Assembly: GCA_947259165.1 (NCBI GenBank)
Contig: CAMYKY010000031.1
Location: 4,047-36,332 of the forward strand
Length of the DNA: 32,286 nucleotides
Direction: 5' to 3'
DNA from: an uncultured Acidobacteriota bacterium
GTDB taxonomy: Bacteria; Acidobacteriota; Vicinamibacteria; Marinacidobacterales; SMYC01
Shown in pieces: positions 4,073 to 26,744 of the stretch (its first letter is position 1; every line of letters starts with the position of its first letter). The position numbers and the translations under genes are program-made. The notes under the pieces are model-generated. The model did no database searches, was not told the origin of the DNA, and saw only the letters and a program-made list of their open reading frames with translations.

Positions 4073-4073
4073 A

Positions 4074-6810: not shown

Positions 6811-7121
6811 TTGCCCAGATTGGACGCACCACGCCTTCCGAGCCAGCGAAGCGCCCCGCCTGAACTCTTCGTGGTCCGACGAGCTTGATTCTTGCTATTA
6901 TTTGATTACAAAGTGTGTCCTTGCATTCCCGTCGCACATACGAGAGGCTTTCTCATTCATGCATGCAGGTTCGCCTTGCGGACGCCGCCATACGAGCTCT
7001 TGCCGGAGGCGGAACTAGGTACGTCGCGCCACATCGCTTGTAGCATTCGGGTCGCCGTCAGACGCGATGGGCTCCCGAGTGAACGAACGGGCTTTCGAGC
7101 GGCGAACGACACGGAATCATT
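6811..7121. other. 311-base leader region upstream of the pfa-ole operon
   Basis: No supported gene. It includes an AT-rich island (about 6885-6912) in otherwise GC-rich DNA and an 8-base palindrome, TGCATGCA, at 6960-6967. As the last large gap before a 19.5 kb run of co-directional genes, it is the obvious place for the operon's promoter and any operator. I see no recognisable riboswitch or attenuator. Confidence 0.45.
6885..6912 (+). promoter_or_regulatory. Possible promoter for the pfa-ole operon
   Basis: TTGATT (6885-6890), 16-base spacer, TACAAA (6907-6912). These are the best sigma-70-like boxes in the leader. They would leave an untranslated leader of about 200 bases before pfaD. Weak evidence. 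Confidence 0.25.
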
Positions 7122-8864
7122 TTGACCAGCGAACGCGCGAGAACAGGATTGAGCTCAAAAAACCAAGCAGGCGCGCCGATGCAACACCAGAGCTCTCAGG
7201 CGCTGGTTTCGCAGATGTCTCGCTCCAGCTCCAACGCGCCTGTCTCCATCGAACCCCTGGGCCAATGGATAGGCCCCGCCTCGGGTGTTGACCTGCGGGC
7301 GGACGCGGTCAGGGACGCGGTGCAGGACACCGGCGAAGCCGTGGTCCTGATCTCGGATCGTGACGTGTACGCGCGGATCACCGGCGGCAAAGCAGTTCTG
7401 GGAGTGCGCGTCACCGAGCCCGGAGCGTTTCCCATCGTAGGCTATTCGCCACCAATCCCTCCCGAGCATCTCGGTGACCCGGGTTTCCTTGCCGATCACG
7501 GCTTGCGCTATCCCTACATTGCCGGCGCCATGGCCAATGGGATCGGCTCGGCCGAGATCGTGGAGGCCATGGGTCGCGCCGGCATGCTTGGCTTCTTCGG
7601 CGCAGCCGGTCTGCCTCTCGCGGTGGTGGACGCTGCTATCGATCGCCTGTCGCGTTCTCTCGAGGGTCAGCCGTACGGTTTCAACCTCATCCACAGCCCG
7701 AACGAGCCTGACCTCGAGGCCGCCGTGGTGGAGCTCTACATCCGTCGCGGGGTGCACCTTGCTTCGGCCTCGGCGTACCTGGATCTCACCCTCCCGGTGG
7801 TCCGCTATCGCGTCGACGGGATTCACGAAGATTCCCGGGGACGTATCGTGACGCCGAACCGACTCATCGCCAAAGCGTCTCGGATAGAAGTCGCTACGAA
7901 GTTCTTCTCGCCACCGCCGGAGCGCTTGTTGAGGGCTCTCATCGAGACGGGCGACATCACGGAGGGGCAGGCTCGTTTGGCAGGCCAAATGCCCATGGCG
8001 CAGGACATTACCGCCGAGGCCGACTCCGGCGGTCATACCGACAACCAGCCGGCACTGGCTCTGATGCCTTCGCTGATGGCACTGCGCGATCAGATGCAGG
8101 CGCGTCATGGCTACACCCAGCCGCTGCGGGTGGGAGCCGCCGGAGGCATCTCCACTCCCATTGCAGCCGCCGCGGCATTTTCGATGGGTGCTGCCTACAT
8201 CCTTACCGGCTCAGTCAACCAGTCCTGCGTCGAGGCTGGGACGTCGGAGACCGTGCGCACGATGCTCGCTGCCGCTGAGCAGGCCGACGTCACGATGGCG
8301 CCGGCGGCGGATATGTTCGAGATGGGCGTGAAGGTCCAGGTGCTCAAGCGCGGCACGTTATTCGCCATGCGGGCCCAGAAACTCTATGACCTCTATCGAG
8401 CCTGTAACTCTCTTGAATCCATTCCCGCCGCGGATTGGGCGGCGCTGGAAAAAAACTTCTTCCAAACTTCCGTAAACGAGGTTTGGAGCCAGTGCCACGA
8501 TTTTTTCGCAGATCGAGATCCGGCCCAGCTCGAGCGAGCAGCGAAGGATCCAAAGCATAAGATGGCCCTGGTCTTCCGCTGGTATCTCGGCCAGTCGTCT
8601 CACTGGGCCAATGCCGGCGATCCCTCCCGGGTCATCGACTACCAGATTTGGTGCGGACCTTCGATGGGGGCATTCAACGAGTGGGTCCGGGGATCGTTCC
8701 TCGAGCAGCCGGAACACCGCCGTGTCGTCACCGTCGCGATGAACATCTTGCATGGGGCAGCCTTGTTGTCCCGAGTGAACGCCCTTCGCGGCCAGGGCGT
8801 TAAACCCCCGCGCTCGTGGAGCGACTACAACTTGCGGCCAACGGAGGAACTTCTTGCGCAATAA
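7122..8864 (+). CDS. pfaD: PfaD-type FMN enoyl reductase of a PUFA synthase
   Basis: A 580-residue flavoprotein of the 2-nitropropane dioxygenase-like TIM-barrel fold. In Pfa systems it is the trans-acting enoyl reductase that saturates selected double bonds during chain building. Seen: the PfaD opening YSPPIPPEHLGDPGF (108-122), GAMANGIGSAEIVEAMG (135-151) with GFFGAAGLP, an EADSGGHTDNQPAL segment with the likely active-site H305, and the FMN-phosphate region GAAGGISTPIAAAAAFSMGA (338-357) followed by GSVNQSCVEAGTSE. The frame opens with TTG at 7122; ATG at 7179 (residue 20) is also possible since the first ~40 residues are low complexity and neither start has a good ribosome site. It overlaps the next gene by 11 bases. 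In myxobacterial clusters the same gene (pfa1) also comes first. Confidence 0.93.
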   Translation: MTSERARTGLSSKNQAGAPMQHQSSQALVSQMSRSSSNAPVSIEPLGQWIGPASGVDLRADAVRDAVQDTGEAVVLISDRDVYARITGGKAVLGVRVTEPGAFPIVGYSPPIPPEHLGDPGFLADHGLRYPYIAGAMANGIGSAEIVEAMGRAGMLGFFGAAGLPLAVVDAAIDRLSRSLEGQPYGFNLIHSPNEPDLEAAVVELYIRRGVHLASASAYLDLTLPVVRYRVDGIHEDSRGRIVTPNRLIAKASRIEVATKFFSPPPERLLRALIETGDITEGQARLAGQMPMAQDITAEADSGGHTDNQPALALMPSLMALRDQMQARHGYTQPLRVGAAGGISTPIAAAAAFSMGAAYILTGSVNQSCVEAGTSETVRTMLAAAEQADVTMAPAADMFEMGVKVQVLKRGTLFAMRAQKLYDLYRACNSLESIPAADWAALEKNFFQTSVNEVWSQCHDFFADRDPAQLERAAKDPKHKMALVFRWYLGQSSHWANAGDPSRVIDYQIWCGPSMGAFNEWVRGSFLEQPEHRRVVTVAMNILHGAALLSRVNALRGQGVKPPRSWSDYNLRPTEELLAQ

Positions 8865-11800
8865 GTCCAATGTGTCCGATCCGTCCAATGACGGTCGCGC
8901 GCAACAAGAGCCCTTGGCCATCGTGGGGATGGCGTGTCTCTTCCCCAAGTCGGATGACGTTGGGGCTTACTGGTCCAATCTCAAAAACGGCGTGGACACT
9001 ATTTCCGACATCCCGTCTACCCACTGGAACGTAGAGGATTTCTTCGACGACGATCCCAAGGCTCCGGATCGAACCTATGCGCGTCGCGGCGGATTTCTCT
9101 CCCCAGTCGACTTCGACCCCCTGGCTTTTGGCATCGCGCCCAACGACATAGAGGCCACCGATACGACGCAATTGCTGGGTCTCATGGTGGCCCAACAGGC
9201 GCTAGAAGATGCGGGCTACGGGGAGAAGGGAAGCTTCGATCGGGATCGGGCGAGCGTGATTCTCGGTGTCACCGGCACGCTGGAGCTGGTGATTCCTCTG
9301 GGCGCCCGCTTGGGGCATCCGTTGTGGCGACGGGCGTTGAAGGAATCCGGCATCGACGACGATCTTACCGATACGGTCGTTCAAAAGATCTCCGACAACT
9401 ACGTCGAGTGGCAGGAAAGCTCGTTCCCGGGATTGCTGGGCAATGTCGTGGCCGGTCGCATCGCCAACCGTCTCGACCTTGGTGGCACGAACTGCGTGGT
9501 TGATGCCGCCTGCGCGAGCTCACTGGGTGCGCTGCATCTCGCCGGCTTGGAGCTCGCGTCGGGACGCTCGGACATGGTGCTCGCGGGAGGTATGGATACC
9601 TTCAACGACATCTTTATGTACATGTGCTTCTCCAAGACGCCGGCGCTCTCACCCACGGGTGATTGTCGTCCTTTCGACGCGTCCGCCGACGGCACGATCC
9701 TGGGTGAGGGACTCGGGGTTTTGGTTCTCAAACGATTGGCCGACGCCCGCAGAGACAAGGACGCGGTTCATGCGGTCATTCGATCGGTGAGTGCGTCGAG
9801 CGACGGCAAAGGTACGGCGGTTTATGCGCCCGTGGCCAAAGGCCAGGCTAAAGCACTCCGAAGTGCATACGCCGGCGCCGGGATTTCGGCGCGGAGCATC
9901 GAGCTCGTCGAGGCTCATGCTACCGGTACGAAAGTCGGAGATGCGACCGAGGTCCAATCTCTTTCCTCGGTGTTCCGAGAACATGATGTCGACGGCAAAT
10001 GGTGTGCTCTTGGGAGCGTGAAGTCGCAGCTCGGACATACCAAAGCTGCCGCCGGAATCGCTGGCGTGATGAAGGCCGCCCTAGCGCTCAAGCACAAGGT
10101 TCTCCCACCCACGTTGAAAGTCACCGAGCCGCTCGAAGTGCTCAAGAACGGGGACTCGCCGTTTTACGTCAACACCACGAAGCGGCCCTGGGCTGGTTCG
10201 GCGGAGCATCCGAGGCGGGCCGCGGTCAGCGCGTTTGGCTTTGGCGGCAGCAACTTCCACTGCGTTCTCGAAGAAGCGGAAGCTTCGAAGTCCGCTCCCG
10301 ACTTCGACGGCGAAACGGTGCTTCTGGCGTTTTCCGCCCACACTCGAGAGGAGCTCTCGAGCGCCGTCCAGGCTTTTCCGGCGGAGCGGAAGGGTAGCGA
10401 TCTGCGTGCCTTGGCCGCGCGGTCGCGAAGCGCGTTCCGCCATGACGGCGCTCATCGGCTGGTCCTCGCAACGGAGCCGGCGCAGCTCGAAAAAGGTCTC
10501 GAGGGCGGCGTAAAGCTCCTGAAGTCTCAATCCGACAAGACGTCATGGAGCACTCCCGACGGGGCCTTCTACGGCAGCGGAGCGCCAGAGGGATCTTTGG
10601 CGTTTTTGTTCCCGGGGCAAGGCTCGCAATACGTCGGAATGCTCAGAGATCTGTCATGTCAGTTTCCCGAGCTCGTGGAGAGCTTGACGCGGGCCGGCAA
10701 GCCTCTCAACGACATGATCTATCCCCATCCCGCCTTCGACGACGAAACCAAAGCGTCGCAAGAGTGGGCCTTGCGTGCGACCGACGTGGCTCAGCCAGCA
10801 ATCGGTGCTGTCTCACTCGGTGCGTTGGGCGTGTTGCGGAGGTTCGGTCTCGAGCCCGACGCGGTCGCGGGTCACAGCTACGGCGAGCTGGTTGCGCTGC
10901 AGGCGGCGGAGGTGTTCGACGCTGACACGTTGCGCGTTTTATCCACGCTCCGCGGCCAGCTCATGGCCGAGGGAAGCAGCGACCGCGGCGCCATGTTGGC
11001 GGTGGAGTCCGATGAGGAGACCATCGAATCCATCATTACCGAAAATGCGCTCGAGCTCGTGGTGGCGAACAAGAATGCTCCGGCGCAGTTGGTCGTGTCC
11101 GGTGCGACCGGCGCAATCGAAAAAGCTGTGACGGTGTTCGAACGGCGAGGTCTCCGATGCAAACGCCTCGCGGTCTCCGCGGCGTTTCACAGCGCTCTCG
11201 TGGCGGATGCGTCCGAACCTTTGGCGAAGAAACTCGGCGAGCTGGACTTGTTCACGCCGAAGCGCAAGGTCTACGCGAACGCGACCGGCGAAACCTATCC
11301 CGACGACGCCGCCGGAATCGCCGAGCTGCTGGCGAGCCAGCTCGTCCGGCCGGTGGAGTTCGTCAACGAGATCCGCAACCTGTACCGAGACGGCACGCGT
11401 TTGTTTCTCGAGGTCGGGCCCGGAAGTCGGCTCACCGGCTTGGTGCGATCGATTCTCGACGATGATGACGTCGTGGCGCATGCGCTCGACGCGTCCTCGG
11501 GGAAGCGTCCCGGAGCCGTGGACCTCGCGCGTGCGCTCGCTCGCGTTGCTGCATACGGTTTCAGCGTTGCGTTGAATCAATGGGACCCCGAGGCCTCATC
11601 GTTCTCTATCGAGGAGGAACGTTCGAAGCCGGCTCTCACCGTGAGCCTTAGCGGGGCCAACTATGTCAAACCCAAGAAGAGGCAGGAGGCGCCTGCACCA
11701 GGGCGAACCCGCATGAGCAATCAACCCCCCAAACCTGTCAAAGCCCCCCAGCTACCGGATCGAGACCAAGCTGCTGCCGCTCCGAGCCAGGCACCCGTTG

Positions 11801-14800
11801 TGGGCGCTGCTGGACAATCATTAATTAATGACGCGCTACGGATGTCCCAGGCCAACATGGCCGCGCTTCAGAAGATGCAGGAGCAAACCGCGGCCCTCCA
11901 CCAACAGTTCCTTCAGGGCCAGGAGTCCGCTCACCAAACGCTACAATCGTTGCTCGATCAACAACAACGTCTGGTGGAGCAGAAACTTGGCCTGGCGCCA
12001 TCACCCGTGCGTCGAGCCGAACCCGCGTCAGTACCCGTCGTGCCGACTCCGATACCGCTGGCTCCGCTGGCAGCGGTGGCTCCACCGGTTCAGCCGATAC
12101 AGCCAACACAAATCGTTCCGCCGATCGCGGCTCCGGCCCCGGCTCCGGTGGCGGTACCGGTTCCGGCACCCACCGAGCCGCCGCAAGCTGAGTCTGCCGA
12201 AGTCGCAACTCAGTCGACTCCCGTCGGCGGTGTCGACGCTGCGAACGTGGAGGCGGTTCTTCTCGAAGTCGTGGCGGAGAAGACCGGATACCCAGCCGAC
12301 ATCCTGAACCTCGACATGGAGATGGATTCGGATCTCGGTATCGACTCGATCAAGCGAGTGGAGATCCTTTCGTCCCTGCAGCAGCGTATTCCCGAGGCAC
12401 CCCCGGTGGGTCCAGAGCATCTCGGTAACTTGCGAACTCTCGCGCAGGTCGTGACCTTTCTTACCGAGGACGACTCGGCGAGCTCATCGCCAGCCCCCGC
12501 GGACGCAGGCGCGGCGCCGCCGACATCGGCGAAACCGGCGACCGAGACGGAGCCCGCTGAGGCTGAAGTCGTTGCGCGGACGTCGAGTTCGGGAATCGAT
12601 CTCAAGGTTGGCTCGAGCGTTTTGGCGGCAGTGTCGGCCAAGACCGGGTTTCCGGTGGACTCCCTCCACATGAACATGGACCTCAAATCGGACCTGGGAA
12701 TCGATCACGTCAAACGCGCCGAGATCTTCTCATTCCTCAGGGACAAGACACCCACCATGCCCGAGATCGCCAACGGGGTCGTCAACTCGTGGCGGACGTT
12801 GCGCAACGTGGTGGAAACGTTGTCGGACAATATGAAGACTTACTCCCAGCCCTTAGCGAATCCGACCGACGCTCCTGTCCCGACTGTGGACGTCGACGAG
12901 CTCACTCGGCGGGCGAATTCGTTTCGGGCCAAGGGGCCGGAAAGAAGCGTGCTCGCGGTGAAAGTCCTCGACAAGGCGGCCGAGCGCAAAAAGTTCTCCC
13001 TGGCCGCGGACGGCGTCGTATGGATCTCCCGGGACGACTCCGGGCTCGCGGCCGAGGTCGCCAAACTTATTGAAGCCCTGGGACACGAGCCGCGGCTCGT
13101 CGCCCTGGAAGACGCCGTGTCGTTGGCGCCACCGTCAGAGCTAGCCGGGCTTGTCCTGGTCGGTCCCGCGAACCCGGACAGCGAACGGTTCCTGTCCCAA
13201 TCGTTGACGCTCCTGCGTCGGGCGGCGCCGGCACTACGCCGGAGCGGTCGTTCGACAGGCTCGGTGTTTGTTACCGTGTCACGTCTGGACGGTGTCTTCG
13301 GCGTTCGCGCAGGCTCGAAAGGTGGATCGAAGGGGATGGGCCCCGCGACTTGGCCTTTGAGCGGCGGACTCGCCGGTCTCACCAAGACAGCGAGCCATGA
13401 GTGGCCCGAAGTTCACTGCAAGGCCATGGACGTCACGTCCGGGGCTCATGACGCGGCTTCGCTCGCGGTGGACATTGTCGATGAGATCTTTTTCGATGGA
13501 CCGCTCGAAGTGGGTCTCACGACCACGGGTCCGGTCACACTCGAGCTTTCGCCCCGCGCCATCGTTCCCGGCGATTCGTCCTGCGAGCTCGGCAAAGACG
13601 ATGTGATCGTCATCTCCGGCGGCGCCCGAGGCGTGACGGCGGCGGCTGCCCGTGAGCTCGCTCGGGCCTTCGGATCGAAGCTCGTGCTCCTGGGGCGAAC
13701 TCCGCCTCCCTCGGACGAGCCCGCATGGCTTCAGGGCCTTACTTCCGAGGCGGACATCAAGAAAGAGATCGCAAGCCGGGCCGGCGCGGGCGCGTCGCCC
13801 CGGCACGTTGGGGACGAGTACCGGCGGCTCATGGCCAGTCGCGAGATTCGACAGACTCTGGACGATTTAGCAGACTCCGCCGATCACGTGGAATACCGCG
13901 CGGTGGATGTTCGTGATGGCGTGGCGGTACGGCACATCCTTGCTGACGTGAGCGCGAAGCTCGGACCCATCACCGCTCTCGTACACGGGGCCGGCGTGCT
14001 CGCGGATCAGCTCATCGAGGACAAGACCGAAGAGCAGTTTTCCCGGGTTTTCGGGACCAAGGTCGGTGGCATGACGGCTCTTCTGGATGCCGTGGAGATC
14101 GAGTCTCTCAAGGTAGTGGTTTTGTTCTCTTCGTCGACCGCACGCTTCGGCCGCAAAGGCCAAGTGGACTATGCCGTAGCGAACGAAGTACTCAACAAGG
14201 CCGCATGGCAGCTGGCCGCGCGGGTTCCTTCCGCTCGAGTGGTTTCCGTCGGCTGGGGTCCGTGGGACGGCGGTATGGTCACTCCCGCCTTGGCCAAGGT
14301 GTTCCAGGACGAGGGCGTTGGACTCATCGGTCTCCGAGAGGGAAGCCGCGCGTTGGTGGACGAGATTCGCCATGGTAGCCGGGACGTTGTCGAGGTCGTG
14401 ATGCTGGCGCCTCCGGAGACGGACGCGAGCTTGAGTGTGTCTTTCGAAAGAGAGATTGGCGTGAAGCAGATACCGATCCTGAAGGACCACGTACTGAACG
14501 GCCGGGCGGTTGTTCCCTTGGCTCTCATCGTCGAGTGGATGGCGCATGGTGCTGTGCACAAGAATCCCGGACTCCGCTTCCACGGTTTCGACGATCTCAG
14601 AGTGCTCAAGGGAATCATCCTGGATGCCAAGGAAACCCGCGTGACTCGAGTTTTCACGGGCAAGGCGATCAAGAAAAACGGACCGGGGCACCTCAGTATT
14701 CCCGTGGAAGTCAGAAGCACCGGCGCCGATGGCAAACAACACCACCACGCCCGGGCGACGATTCACCTGGCGTCGAAGTTGCCCGCGGCTTCCGGTGCCC

Positions 14801-15288
14801 GGCTGAACACCCACACCAGTCCTTACCACCGGCCAAGCGATGAGATCTATCGAGATCTTCTCTTCCATGGGCCGGCTCTGCAAGGTATTCAGGAAGTCGA
14901 AGGCCTCTCCGACGACGCGATCACCGCTCGCACCGTCCCGATGTCTCCTCCGTCCCGCTGGCTCGAGGAGCCACTCAGAAATTCGTGGCTCGCCGATCCG
15001 CTGGCATTAGACGTTGCCTTCCAACTGATGATCGTCTGGAGCCAGGAGACCCATCAAGCTGCCTCGTTGCCGACTTATGCGGGGCGCTATCGTCAGTTCA
15101 GAGAATCGTTTCCGGCGGAGGGTGTCTCGGTGGTCGTCAAGATCACAGGCAGCGGAGACTCCTGGGCCCGAGCCGACATGGAATTTCTCGATAGCGACGG
15201 GGGGCTCGTCGCCCGCCTCGAGAATTACGATTGCGTCGTCGACACTTCGCTCAGCGAGGCGTTCACCCGCAATCGTTTGTCGGTTTAA
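8854..15288 (+). CDS. pfaA: PfaA-type polyunsaturated fatty acid synthase, KS-AT-ACP-ACP*-KR-DH
   Basis: A 2144-residue iterative synthase. Ketosynthase 18-475: C220 (DAACASS), H355 (EAHATGT), H395 (LGHTKAAAG). Acyltransferase 580-880: FPGQGSQ, S675 (GHSYGE), R700, H779 (AAFHS), a malonyl-type set. A Gln-rich coiled coil (about 985-1045) and Pro/Ala linker follow. ACP1 1131-1206 has the phosphopantetheine serine S1165 (LGIDSIKR). ACP2 1250-1326 reads LGIDHVKR, with His1285 in its place, so it cannot be loaded normally. Ketoreductase 1580-1805: SGGARGVT, S1760/S1761, Y1773, N1777. C-terminal dehydratase-like domain 1870-2135: HxxxGxxxxP from H1879 and DxxxQ at D2053. Known PfaA proteins carry several tandem ACPs; one active ACP is unusual. 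The start is TTG 8854 with GGAGG at 8843-8847, inside the end of pfaD. Confidence 0.93.
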   Translation: MRNKSNVSDPSNDGRAQQEPLAIVGMACLFPKSDDVGAYWSNLKNGVDTISDIPSTHWNVEDFFDDDPKAPDRTYARRGGFLSPVDFDPLAFGIAPNDIEATDTTQLLGLMVAQQALEDAGYGEKGSFDRDRASVILGVTGTLELVIPLGARLGHPLWRRALKESGIDDDLTDTVVQKISDNYVEWQESSFPGLLGNVVAGRIANRLDLGGTNCVVDAACASSLGALHLAGLELASGRSDMVLAGGMDTFNDIFMYMCFSKTPALSPTGDCRPFDASADGTILGEGLGVLVLKRLADARRDKDAVHAVIRSVSASSDGKGTAVYAPVAKGQAKALRSAYAGAGISARSIELVEAHATGTKVGDATEVQSLSSVFREHDVDGKWCALGSVKSQLGHTKAAAGIAGVMKAALALKHKVLPPTLKVTEPLEVLKNGDSPFYVNTTKRPWAGSAEHPRRAAVSAFGFGGSNFHCVLEEAEASKSAPDFDGETVLLAFSAHTREELSSAVQAFPAERKGSDLRALAARSRSAFRHDGAHRLVLATEPAQLEKGLEGGVKLLKSQSDKTSWSTPDGAFYGSGAPEGSLAFLFPGQGSQYVGMLRDLSCQFPELVESLTRAGKPLNDMIYPHPAFDDETKASQEWALRATDVAQPAIGAVSLGALGVLRRFGLEPDAVAGHSYGELVALQAAEVFDADTLRVLSTLRGQLMAEGSSDRGAMLAVESDEETIESIITENALELVVANKNAPAQLVVSGATGAIEKAVTVFERRGLRCKRLAVSAAFHSALVADASEPLAKKLGELDLFTPKRKVYANATGETYPDDAAGIAELLASQLVRPVEFVNEIRNLYRDGTRLFLEVGPGSRLTGLVRSILDDDDVVAHALDASSGKRPGAVDLARALARVAAYGFSVALNQWDPEASSFSIEEERSKPALTVSLSGANYVKPKKRQEAPAPGRTRMSNQPPKPVKAPQLPDRDQAAAAPSQAPVVGAAGQSLINDALRMSQANMAALQKMQEQTAALHQQFLQGQESAHQTLQSLLDQQQRLVEQKLGLAPSPVRRAEPASVPVVPTPIPLAPLAAVAPPVQPIQPTQIVPPIAAPAPAPVAVPVPAPTEPPQAESAEVATQSTPVGGVDAANVEAVLLEVVAEKTGYPADILNLDMEMDSDLGIDSIKRVEILSSLQQRIPEAPPVGPEHLGNLRTLAQVVTFLTEDDSASSSPAPADAGAAPPTSAKPATETEPAEAEVVARTSSSGIDLKVGSSVLAAVSAKTGFPVDSLHMNMDLKSDLGIDHVKRAEIFSFLRDKTPTMPEIANGVVNSWRTLRNVVETLSDNMKTYSQPLANPTDAPVPTVDVDELTRRANSFRAKGPERSVLAVKVLDKAAERKKFSLAADGVVWISRDDSGLAAEVAKLIEALGHEPRLVALEDAVSLAPPSELAGLVLVGPANPDSERFLSQSLTLLRRAAPALRRSGRSTGSVFVTVSRLDGVFGVRAGSKGGSKGMGPATWPLSGGLAGLTKTASHEWPEVHCKAMDVTSGAHDAASLAVDIVDEIFFDGPLEVGLTTTGPVTLELSPRAIVPGDSSCELGKDDVIVISGGARGVTAAAARELARAFGSKLVLLGRTPPPSDEPAWLQGLTSEADIKKEIASRAGAGASPRHVGDEYRRLMASREIRQTLDDLADSADHVEYRAVDVRDGVAVRHILADVSAKLGPITALVHGAGVLADQLIEDKTEEQFSRVFGTKVGGMTALLDAVEIESLKVVVLFSSSTARFGRKGQVDYAVANEVLNKAAWQLAARVPSARVVSVGWGPWDGGMVTPALAKVFQDEGVGLIGLREGSRALVDEIRHGSRDVVEVVMLAPPETDASLSVSFEREIGVKQIPILKDHVLNGRAVVPLALIVEWMAHGAVHKNPGLRFHGFDDLRVLKGIILDAKETRVTRVFTGKAIKKNGPGHLSIPVEVRSTGADGKQHHHARATIHLASKLPAASGARLNTHTSPYHRPSDEIYRDLLFHGPALQGIQEVEGLSDDAITARTVPMSPPSRWLEEPLRNSWLADPLALDVAFQLMIVWSQETHQAASLPTYAGRYRQFRESFPAEGVSVVVKITGSGDSWARADMEFLDSDGGLVARLENYDCVVDTSLSEAFTRNRLSV

Positions 15289-15305
15289 GGCTCTCGGCTC
15301 CATCG

Positions 15306-18300: not shown

Positions 18301-21300
18301 CCGGAAATCACTACCACGGCATGGGGCGAGAGCTCGCGCTGTGTTTTCCTGAAATCCTGCATCGCCACGACGCCGAGAACCGCTACTTGAAACGTCAGAT
18401 GGTGCCGGAGTGGTGTTGGGGGACGACGCCGCCTGAGGATTTTAACGAGCGGCACCACGCGCTCATCTTCGGCCAAGTCACGCTCGGCACTGTGGTCACC
18501 GACATCGTCACGAATGTCTTCGGTGTCGGCCCCGATGCTGTTGTTGGGTACAGCCTCGGCGAGTCCGCGGGCTTGTTCGCGACGCGAACGTGGACGGCGC
18601 GAGACGAGATGCTGACCCGGATGGAAGAGTCGTCCCTGTTCGTCAGCGACTTGGCGGGACCGTGCGAGGGCGCGCGCCGCGCATGGGGACTAGAGCCCGG
18701 AATCCCGGTGGATTGGCTCGTTGGCGTGGTGGACCGACCGGCCCAGACGGTGAAGGCCGCGCTTCGAGATCACGAGCATGTTTACCTGTTGATCACGAAC
18801 ACCTCCGACGAATGCGTCATTGGCGGCAATCGATCCGCGGTGACTCGCTTCGTCGCGTCTTTGGGCGCGAGCTTGGTTCCCGTTAACGGCGTCGTGACCG
18901 TTCACTGCGAAGTTGCCAATTCTGTCGACAAGGCGTACCACGATCTGCATCTGTTCGAGACGAAGCCTCCCGAGGGGGTGCGATTCTACTCGGTGGCTGG
19001 CGGGACGGCACATGAGCTGACTCGGGAGTCGGCAGCGCACTCCATTACCGAGCAAGCGCTTCACGGTTTCGATTTTCCTGCTGTCGTGCAAAACGCCTAC
19101 GCCGACGGCGCGAGGGTTTTCATCGAGATGGGGCCCGGTGCTTCGACGAGCCGGATGATCGATCGGATTCTTGACGATCGACCTCATCGGGCGATCGCGA
19201 TGAACGTCCCCGGGCAGGGCGAAATCTTTTCCTTGCTCCGAGGCGTTGCCACTCTCATTGCCGAAAGAGTGCCGGTCGATCTCGGCGCCTTCATGAATCG
19301 CTTCTGGCGAGCGCGAGAGGCCTCTGGAGCTTCCGCTTTATCCGCGACGGCGAGCCGCACGCGCGCGCTGCAAGTTGCGGTGGGAGGCCGGCCCTTCCAG
19401 GCGCCTGTCGCCATCGTGCCGTCGCCCGTGGCCTACGCCGAGACCGACATCGACTCGAATATCGATATCGGCGCCGAGATCCACGCCGACACCGGAATCG
19501 ATGCCGACATGATTGGCGGGTTCCAACAATCGGTGCTTCGCACCGGCGAGGCTCACAGCACGTTCTTGCGCGTGAGCGGAGCCTTGCAAAATCGGATGGC
19601 CGAGAATCTCTCGTTTCAAAACCGACTGCTTGGCCTAGTGGACTCGACGGACGTACCGGACGAGCTGTCATGGACGAGTGACAACCCAGTGGTCACCGCG
19701 CCGGCACCCGCTTTGGATCGAGCCGCGTGCCTGCGCTTCGCCGTCGGCTCGATCGCCGAAGTCCTCGGTGCGGAGTTCGCGCCGGTGGATAGCTTTCCTA
19801 CGAGGGTGCGTCTTCCAGACGAGCCGCTCATGCTGGTCGATCGCATCATGGAAATCCAAGGTGCGCCGAAATCCATGAGTCGCGGCCGGGTGGTCACCGA
19901 ACATGACATCCATCCCGGCGCTTGGTATCTCGATAGCGGTCGAATCCCGACCTGTATCGCCGTAGAAGCTGGGCAAGCGGATCTTTTTCTCTCAGGTTAC
20001 CTGGGTATTGACTTCATCACGCGAGGGCTCGCGGTCTACCGTCTGCTCGACGCCGAAGTCACTTTCCATCGCTCGCTCCCCGGCGCGGGCGAGACCATCC
20101 ATTACGACATCGCCATCGACGAGTTCTTCCGGCAGGGTGATACCCATCTGTTCCGCTTCAGCTTCGAGGCGACGGTCAACGGCGCGCCGTTGCTGAGCAT
20201 GGTCAAAGGATGCGCGGGTTTTTTCACCTCGGAAGAGCTCGCCGCCGGCAAGGGCATCGTGCATACGGCGATCGATTTGAAACCGCAGTCTGGTGTCCGG
20301 CCCGACGACTGGCGCGACCTAGTCGACATGACCGTGGAGTCCTACGACGACGCAGCCATCCAAGCGCTGCGTGACGGAGATCTAGCAGCGTGCTTCGGTG
20401 AGGCGTTCGCGAACTTGCCCGTGAAGAGCCCAGCGACGATTCCCAGTGGCACGATGAAGCTACTGGATCGAGTGGTGCATCTCGATCCTCGAGGCGGACG
20501 GTTCGGGCTCGGGATCATCAAGGCCGAAGCCGACATTCGCCCGGACGACTGGTTCCTGACGTGCCATTTCACCGACGACATGGTCATGCCAGGAACGCTC
20601 ATGTACGAGTGCTGCCTCCACACATTGCGCGTTTTCCTGCTCCGCATGGGATGGGTCGTTTCTAAAGACATCGTTGCCTTCCAGCCTGTCGCCGGCGTCG
20701 CAAGCCAGCTGAAGTGCCGCGGCCAAGTGATCGCGTCCACGAAGAACGTGCAGTACGAAATCTCGTTGAAGGAAATCGGATACACGCCGAAGCCTTACGT
20801 GATCGTGGACGCGCTCATGTACGCCGACGGCAACGCGATCGTGGAAATCACCAACATGTCTCTCGAGCTCGACGGTGTCGATCGCGAGACTCTCGAGAGA
20901 ACATGGGACGTTCCCGGGCTGTCCGAGCGGGCCAAGCCCGCAATCTACGATACCGATCGCATCACCGCCTTTGCGATCGGCAAGCCCTCGGAAGCTTTCG
21001 GCAAACCCTACGAGGTGTTTGACGAACAACGCGTCATTGCGCGCTTGCCCGGCCCGCCGTATCAGTTCCTCGACCGGATCACCGAGATCGAGGCGGAGGC
21101 TTGGAAGCTCGACGCCGGCGGCGTCATCGAAGCCCAGTACGATGTCCCTCAAGACGCCTGGTACTTCGACGCGGACAACCAGAACACCATGCCGTTCGCG
21201 GTACTGCTCGAAGTGGGCCTGCAGCCCTGTGGATGGCTCGCGGCGTACTTGGGCTCGGCGTTGACCAGCGACATCGACCTATCGTTTCGGAACCTTGGGG

Positions 21301-22013
21301 GCAAAGGTGTCCAACGCATGCCGGTCACCCGCGACATCGGTGTATTGACCACGGTCGTGAAGATCACGAATGTGTCGCAATCAGCGGGGATGATCGTGCA
21401 GAGCTACGACTTTGAGATTCGCTCGGCCACGGGACCCGTCTATATGGGTGATACGACCTTCGGCTTTTTTTCCAAGGAAGCCCTGGCATCGCAGATCGGG
21501 ATCCGCGACCAAGCGCCTTACGCGCCGAGCGACGACGAGCGTCACCGGAGTCGCGCTTTTGCCATTCCGCTGGGCGCACCTTTTCCCGATGAGCGGTTCC
21601 AGATGATTTCGGACGTCGAGCTGTTCGTCACCGACGGTGGCCCCCATGGCCTCGGCTTCGTGCGAGGAACGACTCGCGTCAACCCGGACGCGTGGTTTTT
21701 CAAAGCCCACTTCTATCAAGATCCGGTGTGGCCGGGATCCTTGGGGCTAGAATCTCTGATCCAGCTCATGAAAGTCTTTGCCGTCGAGCGATGGGGAGCC
21801 CCGCCCGATGGCCGACTCGAGGCGCTCACGCCCGACACGAAACACACTTGGATCTACCGCGGACAAGTCATTCCCACCGATTCTCTCGTCGTTGCTGATA
21901 TCGTGGTCACCAACTTCGATGAGCGCAATCACGTCATCGAGGCCTCAGGTACGCTTTCGGTCGACGGCCGGCTCATCTATAGGGTGACCGGTTTCAAGCT
22001 GACCTGGTGCTAG
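15306..22013 (+). CDS. pfaC: PfaC-type synthase, KS-CLF-AT-DH-DH (myxobacterial Pfa3-like, no AGPAT)
   Basis: A 2235-residue partner of PfaA. KS about 5-450: C195 (DAACASS), H329 (ECHATGTP), H370 (NVGH). CLF about 473-885: the nucleophile region reads VSSEETS (E658 replaces Cys), as expected for a non-condensing chain-length factor. Acyltransferase about 990-1290: S1083 (GYSLGES) and H1200; this is the PfaB-like AT, fused here as in myxobacterial Pfa3. Two FabA-like double hot-dog dehydratases follow. In each, the first half (about 1500-1640 and 1905-2060) lacks the His motif, while the second has CHFTDDMVMPG with H1754/E1768, and AHFYQDPVWPG with H2135/E2149. The protein ends at this point, without the C-terminal acyltransferase known from some Pfa3 proteins. 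I choose ATG 15306, 17 bases after the pfaA stop; the open frame goes back to TTG 15231 inside pfaA. Confidence 0.93.
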   Translation: MKSRAPIAVVGMGGIFPGAANLDRFWANIAAGVDASREVPSGRWVLDPASAYDPEVGRADKVYSTRGCFIEDFHLDKRDLDLDPDVVTALDPLFHLALHAGRQAVEDACLDKDSRERVGVIIGNIALPTESSSNIARKILGQTFDEITGSRIASSSSGASGRTHPLNRYVAGLPGGLMAKALRLGGGSYTLDAACASSLYALKLASDELIAGRTDAMVAGGLCRTDCLYTQMGFSQLRALSPSGRCSPFDRKADGLVVGEGAGMVVLKRLEDALRDGNAIHGVITGIGLSNDVEGKLLAPSTEGQLRAMRPAYKQSGWSPHDVDLIECHATGTPVGDAVEIESLTKLWSEAPSTESGPCVIGGVKSNVGHLLTGAGAAGFIKVLLAMKARTLPPTANFSRAGSNLDLEAGPFRVLAEAESWESRDSATPRRAAVSAFGFGGINAHVLVEEWSESTADPRNQRVVQMPVVREDSSVAIVGMDAQFGSLDSLGAFAERVLGDERTDPEENPLWWGVQESSWFKEEGRSAAEFKGHFIGELSLPLGRFRIPPVELEHMLPQQSLMLAVAKGAMDDAGLGTEEKLSTGVFVGIGLDLNTTNFNFRWSVLASEETQHRPRGLADAACPPLIANRTMGALGGIVASRLAREFRIGGPSFTVSSEETSGFKALEAAVRSLQNENVNQALVGAVDLAGDVRAVLTAHDARPDGQRGTPLLGEGAAAFVLKRLEDAEADGDRIYAVIKGLGSATGGGVESTVPTSQAYASALGRAYDESGVDPATVGYIEKHGSGIPCEDAAETSALVNHVAASTDRDAERAAMGSVKDAVGHTGAASGMASLAKTALALYNRVLPGPTRHWLRNREDGPRRAGVSGMSVDGNCCHVVLEEYETQEFHEPIGEIIVETTDALFAVEADDEAGLAAEKRRLNDWLELQRGTADDDARRLAARWHHANPLDSSKKLGVAVVAARDSDVAALLSGDDAARVFQTKEPLGREGSVAFVYPGSGNHYHGMGRELALCFPEILHRHDAENRYLKRQMVPEWCWGTTPPEDFNERHHALIFGQVTLGTVVTDIVTNVFGVGPDAVVGYSLGESAGLFATRTWTARDEMLTRMEESSLFVSDLAGPCEGARRAWGLEPGIPVDWLVGVVDRPAQTVKAALRDHEHVYLLITNTSDECVIGGNRSAVTRFVASLGASLVPVNGVVTVHCEVANSVDKAYHDLHLFETKPPEGVRFYSVAGGTAHELTRESAAHSITEQALHGFDFPAVVQNAYADGARVFIEMGPGASTSRMIDRILDDRPHRAIAMNVPGQGEIFSLLRGVATLIAERVPVDLGAFMNRFWRAREASGASALSATASRTRALQVAVGGRPFQAPVAIVPSPVAYAETDIDSNIDIGAEIHADTGIDADMIGGFQQSVLRTGEAHSTFLRVSGALQNRMAENLSFQNRLLGLVDSTDVPDELSWTSDNPVVTAPAPALDRAACLRFAVGSIAEVLGAEFAPVDSFPTRVRLPDEPLMLVDRIMEIQGAPKSMSRGRVVTEHDIHPGAWYLDSGRIPTCIAVEAGQADLFLSGYLGIDFITRGLAVYRLLDAEVTFHRSLPGAGETIHYDIAIDEFFRQGDTHLFRFSFEATVNGAPLLSMVKGCAGFFTSEELAAGKGIVHTAIDLKPQSGVRPDDWRDLVDMTVESYDDAAIQALRDGDLAACFGEAFANLPVKSPATIPSGTMKLLDRVVHLDPRGGRFGLGIIKAEADIRPDDWFLTCHFTDDMVMPGTLMYECCLHTLRVFLLRMGWVVSKDIVAFQPVAGVASQLKCRGQVIASTKNVQYEISLKEIGYTPKPYVIVDALMYADGNAIVEITNMSLELDGVDRETLERTWDVPGLSERAKPAIYDTDRITAFAIGKPSEAFGKPYEVFDEQRVIARLPGPPYQFLDRITEIEAEAWKLDAGGVIEAQYDVPQDAWYFDADNQNTMPFAVLLEVGLQPCGWLAAYLGSALTSDIDLSFRNLGGKGVQRMPVTRDIGVLTTVVKITNVSQSAGMIVQSYDFEIRSATGPVYMGDTTFGFFSKEALASQIGIRDQAPYAPSDDERHRSRAFAIPLGAPFPDERFQMISDVELFVTDGGPHGLGFVRGTTRVNPDAWFFKAHFYQDPVWPGSLGLESLIQLMKVFAVERWGAPPDGRLEALTPDTKHTWIYRGQVIPTDSLVVADIVVTNFDERNHVIEASGTLSVDGRLIYRVTGFKLTWC

Positions 22014-22028
22014 CAGCAACTGCCAACG

Positions 22029-23081
22029 ATGAAGTACACGAAAGTCTTTGTGGAGGCGATCGGATACGAGCTACCGCCCAGCGTGGTCACCTCCGCCGAG
22101 CTAGAAGCTCGCTTGGAGTCCGCCTACCGTGCGCTCCATGTGCAGCCGGGACAGCTCGAAGCTCTGACCGGGATCTCGGAACGCCGCTGGTGGGCTCCGG
22201 ACACACCGCTATCCCGGGGCGCTATTACCGCCGCTCGGTCCGCCTTGGAGTCGTCGTCGGTTCAATCCGGGGACGTCGACGCTCTCATTTATGCCGGCGT
22301 GTGCCGCGAAAGTTTCGAGCCAGCCACTGCCTGCCGGGTCGCGGACGGTGTCGGCGTGAGCGCCTCGGCGGCGGTCTACGACCTTTCGAACGCGTGTCTC
22401 GGCGTCTTGAACGGCATGCTCGACATTGCCAACCGCATCGAGCTTGGCCAGATCCGCGCGGGCCTCGTGGTCTCGTGCGAGAGCGCCCGGGAGATCGTGA
22501 GCACTATTATTGATGAGTTGAACGAGAGTCCGGACATGGAGCTTTTCAAGATGTCGCTAGCGACGCTCACCGGTGGCTCGGGCGCTGCCGCGGTGCTGCT
22601 GACCGATGGCACGTTCGGCGCGGCGTCGCGACACCGGCTCGTTGGAGGCGTGACCCGCACCGCACCGGAGCACTACGCGCTGTGCCGGTGGGGGATGGAA
22701 GAGACAAATGACAACGTGCAAGCTACTTACCGCCAGTACATGTCCACCGACTCGGTGGCGGTTTTGGAACACGGCGTGGCTCTCGGCCTCGAAACCTGGA
22801 ACGCTTTTATGAATGAGATGGGCTGGAGTGCGGCGGATGTCGACAAGACCATTTGCCATCAGGTGGGATCCGCCCACCAAGAAGTCATCTTGCGAACGCT
22901 TCAAATACCGGAGGACAAAGATTTCACGACCTTTGCCTACCTGGGAAACATGGGAACGGTATCGTTACCAATCACCGCTGCGCTCGCCGCTGAGCGCGAC
23001 GTCCTCGCGGCTGGTAACGCGGTCGCCTTGTTGGGAATTGGGAGTGGCCTGAATTGCCTGATGCTCGGGCTCGAGTGGTAG
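22029..23081 (+). CDS. oleA: OleA, thiolase-fold head-to-head acyl condensing enzyme
   Basis: A 350-residue FabH-like enzyme. OleA joins two acyl-CoA (or activated acyl) groups by non-decarboxylative Claisen condensation to a beta-keto acid. The nucleophile is C123 (LSNACLGVLNG); H277 (ICHQVGSAH) and N307 (YLGNMGTVSLP) complete the triad. E97 lies 26 residues before the Cys, the same spacing as the Glu117/Cys143 pair of Xanthomonas OleA that sets OleA apart from FabH. The His-Asn spacing (30) also agrees. The ATG at 22029 follows pfaC by 15 bases, and the stop is overlapped by oleB. Position between the PUFA synthase and OleB-C-D supports OleA over FabH. Whether its donor is acyl-ACP or acyl-CoA is not visible. 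Confidence 0.93.
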   Translation: MKYTKVFVEAIGYELPPSVVTSAELEARLESAYRALHVQPGQLEALTGISERRWWAPDTPLSRGAITAARSALESSSVQSGDVDALIYAGVCRESFEPATACRVADGVGVSASAAVYDLSNACLGVLNGMLDIANRIELGQIRAGLVVSCESAREIVSTIIDELNESPDMELFKMSLATLTGGSGAAAVLLTDGTFGAASRHRLVGGVTRTAPEHYALCRWGMEETNDNVQATYRQYMSTDSVAVLEHGVALGLETWNAFMNEMGWSAADVDKTICHQVGSAHQEVILRTLQIPEDKDFTTFAYLGNMGTVSLPITAALAAERDVLAAGNAVALLGIGSGLNCLMLGLEW

Positions 23082-23965
23082 ACGAGCTCTACCCGTTCGA
23101 GAGCCATTACTACGACCGCGACGGTCTGAAGCTTCACTACGTGGACGAGGGCAGGGGCGATCCCGTCGTGTGTCTACACGGAAACTCAGGCTGGTCGTTT
23201 TACTACCGCGAGCTCATCAAGGCGCTGCGTGGATCCCACCGCGTCCTGGCGCCGGATCACATTGGCTGCGGCCTGTCGGATAAGCCCGACGACGATCGAT
23301 ATGCATACCGGCTCGAGAGTCGCATCGACGACATCGAGGCCTGGCTCGGCGCGCTCGACATCCAAGAGAACATCACCCTGGTAATGCATGACTGGGGCGG
23401 TGCGATCGGCATGGGATTTGCGGTGCGCCATCCAGAGCGGGTCTCACGCTTGGTGGTCACGAACACCGCGGCCTTTCTCATACCCGGAGCGAAGGCGCTA
23501 CCCTGGTCGCTCTGGTTTTGCCGGAACACCTCGGCGGGCGCTCTATTCGTCCGAGGTCTCAACGGTTTTGTCTTCGGGTGGCTTCTCACCGGGTGCAGGA
23601 CGCGTCGTCTCGATGCCTCGGAGAAATCCGGCTACCTCGCCCCCTATGATTCCTACAAGAACCGAATCGCCGTGTTGCGATTCGTTCAAGACATTCCTCT
23701 CGAGCCGACCGATCCCAGCTTCGAATGTCTCGCGGGTGTCGCCGAGGGGTTGAGTACGCTTGGCGATAAACCCATGCTCGTTTTGTGGGGCGAGAAGGAT
23801 TTTGTATTCGACCATCATGTGCTGGAGGAGTGGACCCGCCGGTTCCCCGACGCTCGGGTCGAAGTGTTCCCTGAAGGCGGTCACTTGATTCTCGAGGATG
23901 CGCGCGATGAATCCATCAACCTCATCCGAGGTTTTCTCGAGGCGGGAGCGGAGGAGTCGTCGTGA
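23054..23965 (+). CDS. oleB: OleB, beta-lactone decarboxylase (alpha/beta hydrolase)
   Basis: A 303-residue alpha/beta hydrolase resembling haloalkane dehalogenases. OleB turns the cis-beta-lactone from OleC into a cis-olefin plus CO2. Seen: N43 in HGNSGWSF (oxyanion/halide-site region), nucleophile D113 in MHDWGGAIGMG, acid D249 in WGEKDF and H277 in EGGHLILED. The N-terminal ELYPFESHYYD fits OleB. The frame starts at TTG 23054, with GGGAG at 23040-23044 nine bases before it, giving a 28-base overlap with oleA. GTG 23075 (7-base overlap) would also keep the whole conserved region. Its stop overlaps the oleC start. OleB alone could be mistaken for a dehalogenase; the neighbours settle it. Confidence 0.92.
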   Translation: MPDARARVVDELYPFESHYYDRDGLKLHYVDEGRGDPVVCLHGNSGWSFYYRELIKALRGSHRVLAPDHIGCGLSDKPDDDRYAYRLESRIDDIEAWLGALDIQENITLVMHDWGGAIGMGFAVRHPERVSRLVVTNTAAFLIPGAKALPWSLWFCRNTSAGALFVRGLNGFVFGWLLTGCRTRRLDASEKSGYLAPYDSYKNRIAVLRFVQDIPLEPTDPSFECLAGVAEGLSTLGDKPMLVLWGEKDFVFDHHVLEEWTRRFPDARVEVFPEGGHLILEDARDESINLIRGFLEAGAEESS

Positions 23966-25623
23966 GTCTGGAAGATGGGGGGGGCGCCGTCAATAAAGTC
24001 GACAGCGTCAACATTGCCTCGCACTTGCCCGCCATGGCCCGACGCCAGCCGGACAGCCCTGCGGTGACGCTTTGGTCGGGTGCATCCTTGACGTTCAAGG
24101 AGCTCGACGACGCTAGCGGCGTGATAGCGCGCGGCCTCGAGTCCGTCGGGATCGGCCGTGGCGTCCGCACCGTGTTGATGGTCAAGCCAAGCATCGACTT
24201 TTTTACGCTCACTTTCGCGCTGTTCAAATGCGGCGCCGTCCCTGTCGTCGTCGATCCGGGGATGGGCCTCGGGAACCTGGGCGTCTGCCTCGCCGAGGCA
24301 CAGCCCGAAGCCTTCATCGGTATTCCTCAAGCCCATGCCGCACGCATCGTCCTGAGGTGGGCGCCGGGGAGGATTCGGACCAAGGTCACCGTGGGGCGTC
24401 GTTGGTTTTGGGGCGGGCATACGCTCAGGGGCGTCTCTCACCGGGGACGGGCCCAGGGCGACTACGTCATGGCTTCCACGAACGCGGACGAGACCGCGGC
24501 GATTCTATTTACCTCGGGAAGCACCGGTGTTCCCAAGGGTGCCGTGTACACCCACGGCAATTTCTCCGCCCAGGTCGAGATGATCCGCGACACCTACGAT
24601 ATCCAGCCGGGCGAAAAAGACATGCCCACCTTTCCCTTGTTCGCGCTTTTCGATCCTGCGCTAGGGATGTCCGCCGTCATCCCGGAGATGGACGCCACGC
24701 GTCCGGCCGCCGTGAACCCGGAGAACATCATCGAGCCCATCCTTCGTCACGGGGTTACCAACATGTTCGGCTCACCTGCGCTCATCGACAAGGTGGGTCG
24801 CTACGGCGAGGCCCGAGGCGTGAAGCTTCCGACGCTCCAGCGCGCCATCTCAGCCGGAGCACCGATGCCAGCCCGTGTCCTCGAGCGCTTCTCCAAGATG
24901 CTCTCGCCGGACGTGCAGGTCTTCACGCCCTATGGCGCCACCGAATCCTTGCCGGTTTGCTCCATCGGCAGTCGAGAGGTACTTGCGGGGACCCGGCAAG
25001 AAACGGATCAAGGCGCGGGAGTCTGTGTGGGTCGACCCGTGAAGGGCATGACGGTCGAGGTGATCCGGATCGACGACGAGCCCATCGAGGCGTGGAGTGA
25101 AGTGCTTCGAGTTCCCCAAGGTGAGGTGGGAGAGATTGCCGTCAAGGGCCCGGTGGTCACCCGATCGTATTTCAACCGTGAGGCCGCGACCAAGCTGGCA
25201 AAGATTCCCGTGCCAGACTCTTCTGAGTTTTATCACCGCATGGGCGACCTCGGTTACTTCGACGATGTAGGCCGGCTGTGGTTTTGCGGTCGCAAGTCTC
25301 ACCGCGTCATCACCAGTAGCGAGACCTACTACACGATTCCATGCGAAGGCGTGTTCAACGCGCATCCCAAGGTTTTCCGCTCGGCCCTCGTCGGAGCGAA
25401 GCGCTCCGCCGGAATCGATCCCGTTCTCGTGGTGGAGCTCGAGGCGGACACCCAAGAGTCTAGTGAGCTTCGCCAGGAGCTCCTAGCGCTCGGCGCCGCT
25501 CAGCCCCATACGAAGAAGATCCAAACGCTGCTCTTCCACAAGAGCCTGCCCGTCGATATTCGCCACAACTCGAAGATCTTCCGCGAGAAGCTCGCCGTGT
25601 GGGCCACGGAGCGACTCCAGTGA
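23962..25623 (+). CDS. oleC: OleC, beta-lactone synthetase (AMP-ligase superfamily)
   Basis: A 553-residue ANL-superfamily enzyme. OleC adenylates the beta-hydroxy acid from OleD and closes it to a beta-lactone. Adenylation motifs in order: P-loop LFTSGSTGVPK (182-192), YGATES (324-329), GDLGYFDDVGRLWFCGRKSHR (428-448) with D429 and R444, and the C-terminal lysine K538 in RHNSKIFRE. The segment TFPLFALFDPALGM after the P-loop is typical of OleC as I remember it. The start is GTG 23962, overlapping oleB by four bases (GTGA), with GAGGAG at 23951-23956. Without its neighbours it would be called a fatty-acid-CoA ligase; the complete oleABCD order makes OleC far more likely. Confidence 0.93.
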   Translation: MSLEDGGGAVNKVDSVNIASHLPAMARRQPDSPAVTLWSGASLTFKELDDASGVIARGLESVGIGRGVRTVLMVKPSIDFFTLTFALFKCGAVPVVVDPGMGLGNLGVCLAEAQPEAFIGIPQAHAARIVLRWAPGRIRTKVTVGRRWFWGGHTLRGVSHRGRAQGDYVMASTNADETAAILFTSGSTGVPKGAVYTHGNFSAQVEMIRDTYDIQPGEKDMPTFPLFALFDPALGMSAVIPEMDATRPAAVNPENIIEPILRHGVTNMFGSPALIDKVGRYGEARGVKLPTLQRAISAGAPMPARVLERFSKMLSPDVQVFTPYGATESLPVCSIGSREVLAGTRQETDQGAGVCVGRPVKGMTVEVIRIDDEPIEAWSEVLRVPQGEVGEIAVKGPVVTRSYFNREAATKLAKIPVPDSSEFYHRMGDLGYFDDVGRLWFCGRKSHRVITSSETYYTIPCEGVFNAHPKVFRSALVGAKRSAGIDPVLVVELEADTQESSELRQELLALGAAQPHTKKIQTLLFHKSLPVDIRHNSKIFREKLAVWATERLQ

Positions 25624-26606
25624 AAGCTCTGGTCACCGGTGGGGGAGGCTTTCTAGGAGGAGCTATCGCCGCGAAGCTCGCCGCCCGCGGTGATGACGTC
25701 AGGAGTTTTTCTCGGGGAAGCCACGCCGAGCTCGCCTCCCTCGGCGTCGAGCATGTTCGAGGAGACCTCGCCGACAGTGAGGCTGTGTCTCGAGCTGTCC
25801 GCGATTGTGAGGTGGTCTTCCACGTCGGAGCCAAGCCGGGAGTCTGGGGTCCCTATGCCGATTACTTCGCGACCAATGTGACCGGCACCGACAACGTCAT
25901 CACGGCTTGTCACCACGAGGGTGTGCACAAGTTGATCTACACCAGCACGCCCAGCGTGGTTTTTGGTGGGTCGGACCAGGAAGGAGTCGACGAGTCCGCT
26001 TCTTACCCCTCTCGCTATGAGACCGCTTATCCTGAAACGAAGGCCATTGCCGAGCGCAAGGTGCTCGAATCGAACACTCCGGAGCTGGCCACCGTCGCAT
26101 TGAGACCGCATCTCATTTGGGGGCCCGGGGACAACCATCTGGTTCCGAGAATCGTGGCCCGTGGTCGGGCGGGCAAGCTCAGAAAGATCGGGCGGCGGCC
26201 CTGCCTCGTGGACTCGGTCTACATCGACAATGCCGCCGACGCGCACATTCTCGCCTTCGAAAAACTCACTCCGGAAGCCGCCTGTGCCGGCAAACCCTAC
26301 TTCATCTCCAATGGCGAGCCCCTGCCCGTGTTCGAGCTCATCAACAAGATTCTGGCCGCCGCCGGAGTGCCGCCGGTCACCCGCTCGATCCCGGTCTCCC
26401 TGGCCGTCGCGGTGGGTTGGATGATGGAGAAGGTTTACGGCGCCGCGTCCATCAAAGAGGAGCCGCCGATGACCCGCTTCCTGGCGCACCAGCTCGCCAC
26501 GTCACACTGGTTCGACATCTCCGCTGCTCGCCGTGACCTGGGATACACCCCGTCCGTCACCATCGCTGAAGGACTCGACCGCCTGAAACGCTCGTTCGAA
26601 CCGTGA
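25620..26606 (+). CDS. oleD: OleD, NAD(P)H-dependent beta-keto acid reductase (extended SDR)
   Basis: A 328-residue extended short-chain dehydrogenase of the 3-beta-HSD/epimerase type. OleD reduces the 2-alkyl-3-keto acid from OleA to the 2-alkyl-3-hydroxy acid used by OleC. Seen: Rossmann motif VTGGGGFLG (5-13), the YTSTPSVVFGG strand carrying the active-site Ser/Thr, catalytic Y137 and K141 (YPETK), then LRPHLIWGPGDNHLVPR, VDSVYIDNAADAHILAFE and a C-terminal SAARRDLGYTPS. The start is GTG 25620, overlapping the oleC stop (GTGA), with GGAG eight bases upstream; the frame open from 25599 adds seven unneeded residues. It is the last gene of the operon; a repeat-rich convergent gap follows. Confidence 0.93.
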   Translation: MKALVTGGGGFLGGAIAAKLAARGDDVRSFSRGSHAELASLGVEHVRGDLADSEAVSRAVRDCEVVFHVGAKPGVWGPYADYFATNVTGTDNVITACHHEGVHKLIYTSTPSVVFGGSDQEGVDESASYPSRYETAYPETKAIAERKVLESNTPELATVALRPHLIWGPGDNHLVPRIVARGRAGKLRKIGRRPCLVDSVYIDNAADAHILAFEKLTPEAACAGKPYFISNGEPLPVFELINKILAAAGVPPVTRSIPVSLAVAVGWMMEKVYGAASIKEEPPMTRFLAHQLATSHWFDISAARRDLGYTPSVTIAEGLDRLKRSFEP

Positions 26607-26625
26607 CCGAGCCGCGAGAAATTCC

Positions 26626-26681: not shown

Positions 26682-26744
26682 GTTAGTGCTGAATACCGTT
26701 GTATTCGTGAAACCCGTCGTGAGTTCGTGTCGGGGCCCTTGATC

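Follow-up and report, generated by a model that had tools for sequence, protein, structure and literature searches.

Does a polyunsaturated fatty acid (PUFA) synthase that is encoded side by side with olefin biosynthesis genes supply the chains for a long polyene hydrocarbon, and what could be the role of a carrier domain of this synthase that has lost its serine? Both questions are raised by a gene cluster of an uncultured Acidobacteriota bacterium, contained in the stretch of 32,286 nucleotides that was analyzed here (the window; G000:C31:4047-36332). The window derives from an assembly of 5.02 Mb in 172 contigs, which is 84% complete.

In the ORF list of the window, seven co-directional ORFs span positions 7122-26606, all on the forward strand. 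The first, pfaD (7122..8864, with a start at TTG 7122 or ATG 7179), encodes an enoyl reductase that matches TIGR02814 with 636 bits (cut-off 449). The product of pfaA (8854..15288) has the Pfam domain order KS-MAT-ACP1-ACP2-KR-PS_DH and scores 1426 bits against TIGR02813 (cut-off 1010). A PfaA-type KS-MAT-ACP-KR protein and a PfaD partner, both above their family cut-offs, identify a Pfa-type PUFA synthase. The third ORF (15231-22013) contains an in-frame ATG at position 15306, located 17 bases past the pfaA stop codon; read from this codon, the gene (15306..22013) encodes KS, CLF and AT domains and four FabA-like hot-dog stretches (Pfam), and its product reaches 126.6 bits against the PfaB family TIGR02816, below the cut-off of 144.3. 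The presence of KS-CLF-AT-FabA in one ORF corresponds to the pfaBC fusion of the Type I secondary lipid synthases (Shulse and Allen). The KS motif DAACASS is intact in PfaA and PfaBC, as are GHSYGE in the MAT and GYSLGE in the AT, and two HFxxD dehydratase motifs are present.

The four remaining genes are oleA (22029..23081), encoding a thiolase-like condensing enzyme (PRK09258, 475 bits, cut-off 285); oleB (23054..23965), for an alpha/beta hydrolase that is a predicted beta-lactone decarboxylase; oleC (23962..25623), for a predicted beta-lactone synthetase (PRK09274, 757 bits, cut-off 478); and oleD (25599..26606), for a predicted 2-alkyl-3-oxoalkanoate reductase. Cys123 of OleA and its Glu, His and Asn residues line up with the solved chain 3row_A, which we take to be the OleA of X. 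campestris, and these four residues are presumably catalytic. The complete set of OleABCD genes is therefore present, with an OleA that has the Cys, Glu, His and Asn. The olefin-specific NCBIfam equivalog models, which carry names of Xanthomonas and Shewanella types, were matched below cut-off: OleC reached 676 of 900 and 651 of 850 bits against two olefin beta-lactone synthetase equivalogs, and OleD 441 and 430 of 580 bits against two 2-alkyl-3-oxoalkanoate reductase equivalogs. For OleB the best model was haloalkane dehalogenase (171 of 241 bits, below cut-off), and no OleB-named model was among the models listed. Because the best family scores are below cut-off, the assignment of OleB and OleD leans on similarity plus gene context.

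At the junctions, pfaD and pfaA overlap by 11 bases, pfaA and pfaBC are separated by 17 bases (counted from ATG 15306) and pfaBC and oleA by 15 bases; the ole genes overlap by 28 (oleA/oleB), 4 (oleB/oleC) and 25 bases (oleC/oleD). Several ORFs in the cluster start with TTG or GTG, and these start positions are provisional. Coordinates, families and junctions agree with the preliminary description, which had listed pfaD, pfaA, pfaC and oleA-D as seven co-directional genes with overlaps or gaps of at most 17 bases. All seven gene identities were supported, but the gene named pfaC proved to encode a PfaB-PfaC fusion (KS-CLF-AT-FabA-like). Judging from the gene spacing, pfaD to oleD may be expressed as a single transcript.

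No pfaE was found within the cluster, and the sole PPTase match in the 84%-complete genome lies on another contig. A PPTase as the last gene past oleD, the published Geobacter order, is absent; a convergent ABC-transporter gene comes next, and convergent ABC-transporter genes plus a transglutaminase-like gene adjoin the operon on the minus strand (26803-30826). A simple scan of positions 26500-27000 revealed no terminator just past oleD, and an Rfam scan of the window gave no match. No thioesterase ORF (pfaT) was found inside the operon, and none of the five 4HBT_2 matches above cut-off in the genome could be assigned to PfaT. No second pfaD or oleC was found in the genome, which has one match each above cut-off.

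Upstream of the cluster, approximately 250 bases immediately 5' of pfaD are 72% conserved with the sister genome G002. A conserved block of 53 bases (6920..6972, forward strand), with 3/53 mismatches to the sister genome (L092), holds the TGCATGCA palindrome and has no other strong match in its own genome; it is a candidate promoter, operator or regulator site of the operon. Along the 17.8 kb that precede the operon in G002, where the contig ends 0.5 kb downstream of it, none of nine flanking window proteins (0/9) was found. A MurJ-like flippase, one unassigned ORF and a Xer-like tyrosine recombinase lie upstream in the window (2366-5749); in the sister genome, they were not found ahead of the operon.

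The preliminary description had proposed a search of genomes for pfaC within 1 kb of oleA, which we performed with the PfaBC dehydratase region as query (E <= 1e-60). In the phylum of the window 5 of 396 genomes match, and oleA adjoins pfaC in 2 of the 396 (the window's genome and G023); no oleA was seen in the stretches read of G020, G1399 and G1377. In the phylum of Desulfobacterium (L005), 22 of 297 genomes match, and all 22 were read: oleA lies at most 300 bases past pfaC in 13, and nine are without it. In the phylum of the Phycisphaerae (L002), 51 of 392 genomes match, and in 31 of the 40 loci read no more than 1 kb separates oleA from pfaC. Among the nine unlinked loci, L106 and L127 end soon after pfaC, five show no oleA, and oleA is located 5.7 kb off in L103 and 1.3 kb off on the opposite strand in L113. 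The phylum of L008 (Deltaproteobacteria by title, Myxococcota by NCBI ranks) has a single match in 290 genomes, that of L008 itself, which is linked. This survey count of the frequency of the pfa-ole unit appears to be new.

In a set of 60 relatives sampled earlier, with the whole PfaBC as query, the complete operon was found in G000, G002 and G023. No ole genes were seen in five of six further genomes with a distant dehydratase (G039 was left out); their PfaC-like loci L036-L040 (G027, G022, G029, G020 and G041, respectively), which belong to the window's class, have dehydratase regions that are 36-41% identical and lie in ole-free stretches. All six genomes of the initially matched loci (L003 left out) encode an OleA relative, which in the fragmented assemblies of L002, L004 and L007 is on a different contig from pfaC. 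A PPTase gene follows oleD in five of seven other loci tested (L065-L069, but not L070 and L073). An alternative layout with pfaD after pfaC was observed in L080-L083, L085 and L086, with no ole genes in the stretches read, and in L111 (G757) pfaD is found past oleD, at the 3' end of a pfaC-oleABCD run.

Across 16 linked loci, the pairwise OleA distances track those of the PfaC dehydratase region (r = 0.93), and 0 of 2000 permutations gave a value as high (L005 and L006 were excluded, as their dehydratase match is too short). The recurrent linkage and this correlation rule out a chance cluster of pfa and ole genes. The functional tie between the Pfa synthase and the Ole enzymes that had been put forward earlier gains support from the linkage in two other sampled phyla and one locus of a third, from the agreement of the distances, and from a link of OleA to the synthase in vivo, reported in the available text of PMC6463001.

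An OleA tree, built by a quick method, places the window and the sister genome with L065-L071 in a set of nine (SH-aLRT 99). In the PfaA tree the window falls into a set of 28 (100/100) together with Geobacter and Gemmataceae, the internal order of which is unresolved and the bootstrap unsettled; the gammaproteobacterial PfaA form a clade far from that of the window. The pfaDA(BC)-oleABCD operon of G023 (L034, L035), a genome that shares the class of the window, encodes a PfaA and an OleA that cluster with Phycisphaerae loci and not with the window. This grouping suggests that the pfa-ole unit has moved between phyla, and makes such a transfer likely.

We consider it likely that the cluster builds a polyunsaturated acyl chain and links two of these chains head to head, giving a long polyene hydrocarbon, with ACP2 of PfaA in a structural role. 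The Pfa-Ole route itself is established; for the window, the chain made, its transfer from ACP1 to OleA and the polyene product are predicted from the genes and by analogy with known systems. In the proposed pathway, a PPTase encoded elsewhere would charge ACP1, onto which the MAT of PfaA would load malonyl units. The KS domains and the CLF would elongate the chain, and the KR, the FabA-like dehydratase/isomerases and PfaD would process every round, leaving double bonds. OleA (Cys123) would receive the acyl chains, probably from ACP1, and condense two of them, after which OleD would carry out a reduction, OleC would close a beta-lactone and OleB would decarboxylate this to the olefin.

Alternatively, the synthase could mainly make PUFA for membrane phospholipids, with the ole genes drawing a side stream only, which appears unlikely. 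Acanthopleuribacter pedis and Sulfidibacter corallicola, cultured acidobacteria with pfaDA(B/C), contain EPA according to the available text of PMC8841776, and for this reason the main pathway reading is held with less confidence. The PfaB-like AT of the window keeps GYSLGE, and PfaB is described, in the part of PMC12895367 available, as the terminal acyltransferase that sets the PUFA product; furthermore, S. pealeana produces EPA and hydrocarbon alike (PMC6463001). On the other hand, oleABCD is directly linked to the synthase here, the synthase genes are co-inherited with OleA, and the Geobacter-group synthases are closer kin with a known product. Linkage of pfa and ole genes does not guarantee a product, since Photobacterium profundum SS9 yielded no detectable hydrocarbon (PMC6463001). 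The view of the preliminary description that an olefin, and not a phospholipid PUFA, would be the main product is therefore not a safe one.

In the polyene hydrocarbon pathway that we favor, ACP1 would be the carrier. ACP1 (12205..12468, forward strand) has kept the phosphopantetheine serine in DLGIDSIKRVE and scores 36.8 bits against PF00550 (cut-off 20.8). ACP2 (12565..12828, forward strand) reads DLGIDHVKRAE, with the serine replaced by a histidine (codon CAC at 12706-12708), and scores 12.8 bits, below this cut-off; it is predicted to be unable to bear a phosphopantetheine arm at the usual site. Instead of several active tandem ACPs (at least four in marine types), the PfaA of the window thus has one Ser-ACP and one Ser-less ACP; several ACPs occur in most, not all, clusters according to the available text of PMC3098273.

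A homologue search was performed with residues 1340-1860 of PfaA. The best 120 of 2172 proteins comprise the window and 13 close relatives (72-85% identity), followed by 106 others (44-52%). P0249, among the 14, is 99.6% identical to the PfaA of the sister genome, which was not counted separately. Each of the 14 listed clade members has one Ser-ACP and one Ser-less ACP, the latter with His in seven, Gln in six and Arg in one. A Ser-less ACP motif was found in 0 of 225 other listed homologues (106 of the best 120 of 2172 and 119 of the best 120 of 3657), with motif patterns that are blind to a Ser-less ACP altered elsewhere too. A looser ACP pattern also matched one non-ACP motif in 39 proteins, and those were discarded. 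Of the 106 homologues listed outside the clade, 16 have a single Ser-ACP, 77 have two, 8 have three and 5 have four. The list of the best 120 of 3657 puts many-ACP proteins first, which makes it an unfair sample of ACP number.

Mean pairwise identity within the clade is 84% for ACP2, compared to 91% for ACP1, 84% for the KR, 83% for the PS-DH and 40-64% for three linkers; the KS and MAT averages were set aside, as they are pulled down by the fragment P0241. Between the window and the sister genome, ACP2 has a dN of 0.10 and a dS of 0.82, and dN is 0.94 for the short linker of 29 codons between ACP1 and ACP2; two other linkers have dN values of 0.30 and 0.35. An AlphaFold2 model of ACP2 (35 rows) has four helices at a mean pLDDT of 81, and the best PDB matches listed are mostly acyl carrier proteins. 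Because ACP2 retains the Asp that precedes the lost Ser, plus a Lys and a Glu in the following helix, part of its partner-facing surface may survive. That ACP2 has no function, being a relic in decay or a product of misassembly, is quite unlikely: the lost serine, the PF00550 score below cut-off and the differing substitute residues (His, Gln, Arg) would fit this explanation, but an error of a single assembly is ruled out by the absence of the serine in 14 of 14 listed clade members, and ACP2 evolves as slowly as the KR and far slower than the linkers.

Most likely, judging from its sequence and from an engineered counterpart, ACP2 would assist ACP1 as a conserved domain for spacing or docking. 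In the available text of PMC5067506, a Shewanella PfaA engineered to contain five ACPs, one of them with a Ser-to-Ala substitution, gave approximately 30% of the PUFA yield of its five-ACP parent and approximately 250% of that of the native four-ACP enzyme; approximately 3% remained when the dead ACP was swapped for an ACP-unrelated sequence. The likeness lies in a Ser-less ACP retained in the carrier array, whereas the Shewanella protein was built in the laboratory and has four further active ACPs, and the window has a natural, clade-wide case with a single active ACP. A literature search limited to open-licence papers found no report of a natural inactive or degenerate ACP in a PUFA synthase, and every ACP of the PfaA homologue in the available part of PMC13291983 retains its Ser. 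A natural, clade-wide Ser-less ACP in a Pfa synthase appears to be new. As a tentative proposal, a carrier-dead ACP beside one working ACP may have become naturally fixed in this clade, under strong selection. It would serve for docking or spacing, raise output and maybe pass the polyene chain on to OleA, and the synthases concerned would supply a hydrocarbon pathway of the same operon; any connection between ACP2 and OleA would be a guess. That the substrates of OleA are ordinary type II fatty acids, in line with the use of FAS II chains by Xanthomonas-type Ole enzymes (PMC6463001), and that the shared operon reflects history only, is highly improbable, given that pfaC and oleA are repeatedly adjacent in separate phyla and that the OleA and PfaC distances correlate with r = 0.93.

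The tandem ACPs of Pfa synthases have been debated as parallel carriers versus structural elements. A natural, clade-wide Ser-less ACP beside one active ACP separates both roles with no need for engineering, so that the question can be tested directly. In addition, pfa-ole units are frequent among the pfaC-bearing genomes of two phyla, and rare but present in a third; as they occur in these phyla, long polyene hydrocarbons may arise well beyond the Shewanella-type marine bacteria.

Among known systems, P. profundum SS9, whose pfa and ole operons adjoin each other, and Shewanella, where these are unlinked, have the same enzymes as the window. On co-expression in E. coli, OleA draws on the Pfa synthase, and Pfa together with OleA gave a 31:8 ketone (PMC6463001). 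Unlike the window, SS9 and Shewanella have a separate PfaB, and SS9 has a thioesterase gene, pfaT, between the operons, as stated in the available text of the same paper. A. pedis and S. corallicola, which belong to the same phylum going by the label of the sister genome, share with the window the order pfaD, pfaA, pfaB/C and a pfaE located far off; EPA contents of 12.2% and 6.2%, respectively, were reported for these species, whereas ole genes are unmentioned in the part of PMC8841776 available.

The closest likeness is to the cluster of Geobacter. The preliminary description had not recognized the pfa-ole co-operon as a described arrangement, and its novelty is ruled out by the available text of two papers: a review of 2016 gives the tandem order pfaD, A, B, C, oleA, B, C, D, pfaE for Geobacter bemidjiensis, which produces hentriacontanonaene C31:9 (PMC4882568), and ole genes were termed "often linked" to such pfa-type clusters in 2011 (PMC3098273). 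The Geobacter cluster and that of the window both have pfaD first, then pfaA, a fused pfaB/C and oleA, B, C and D in tandem, and the PfaA of the window groups with those of Geobacter M21 (Type I in Table 2 of Shulse and Allen, as available) and Gemmataceae. The window differs in that no pfaE follows oleD, and in that its PfaA has one active and one Ser-less ACP, whereas the listed homologues outside the clade have Ser-ACPs only.
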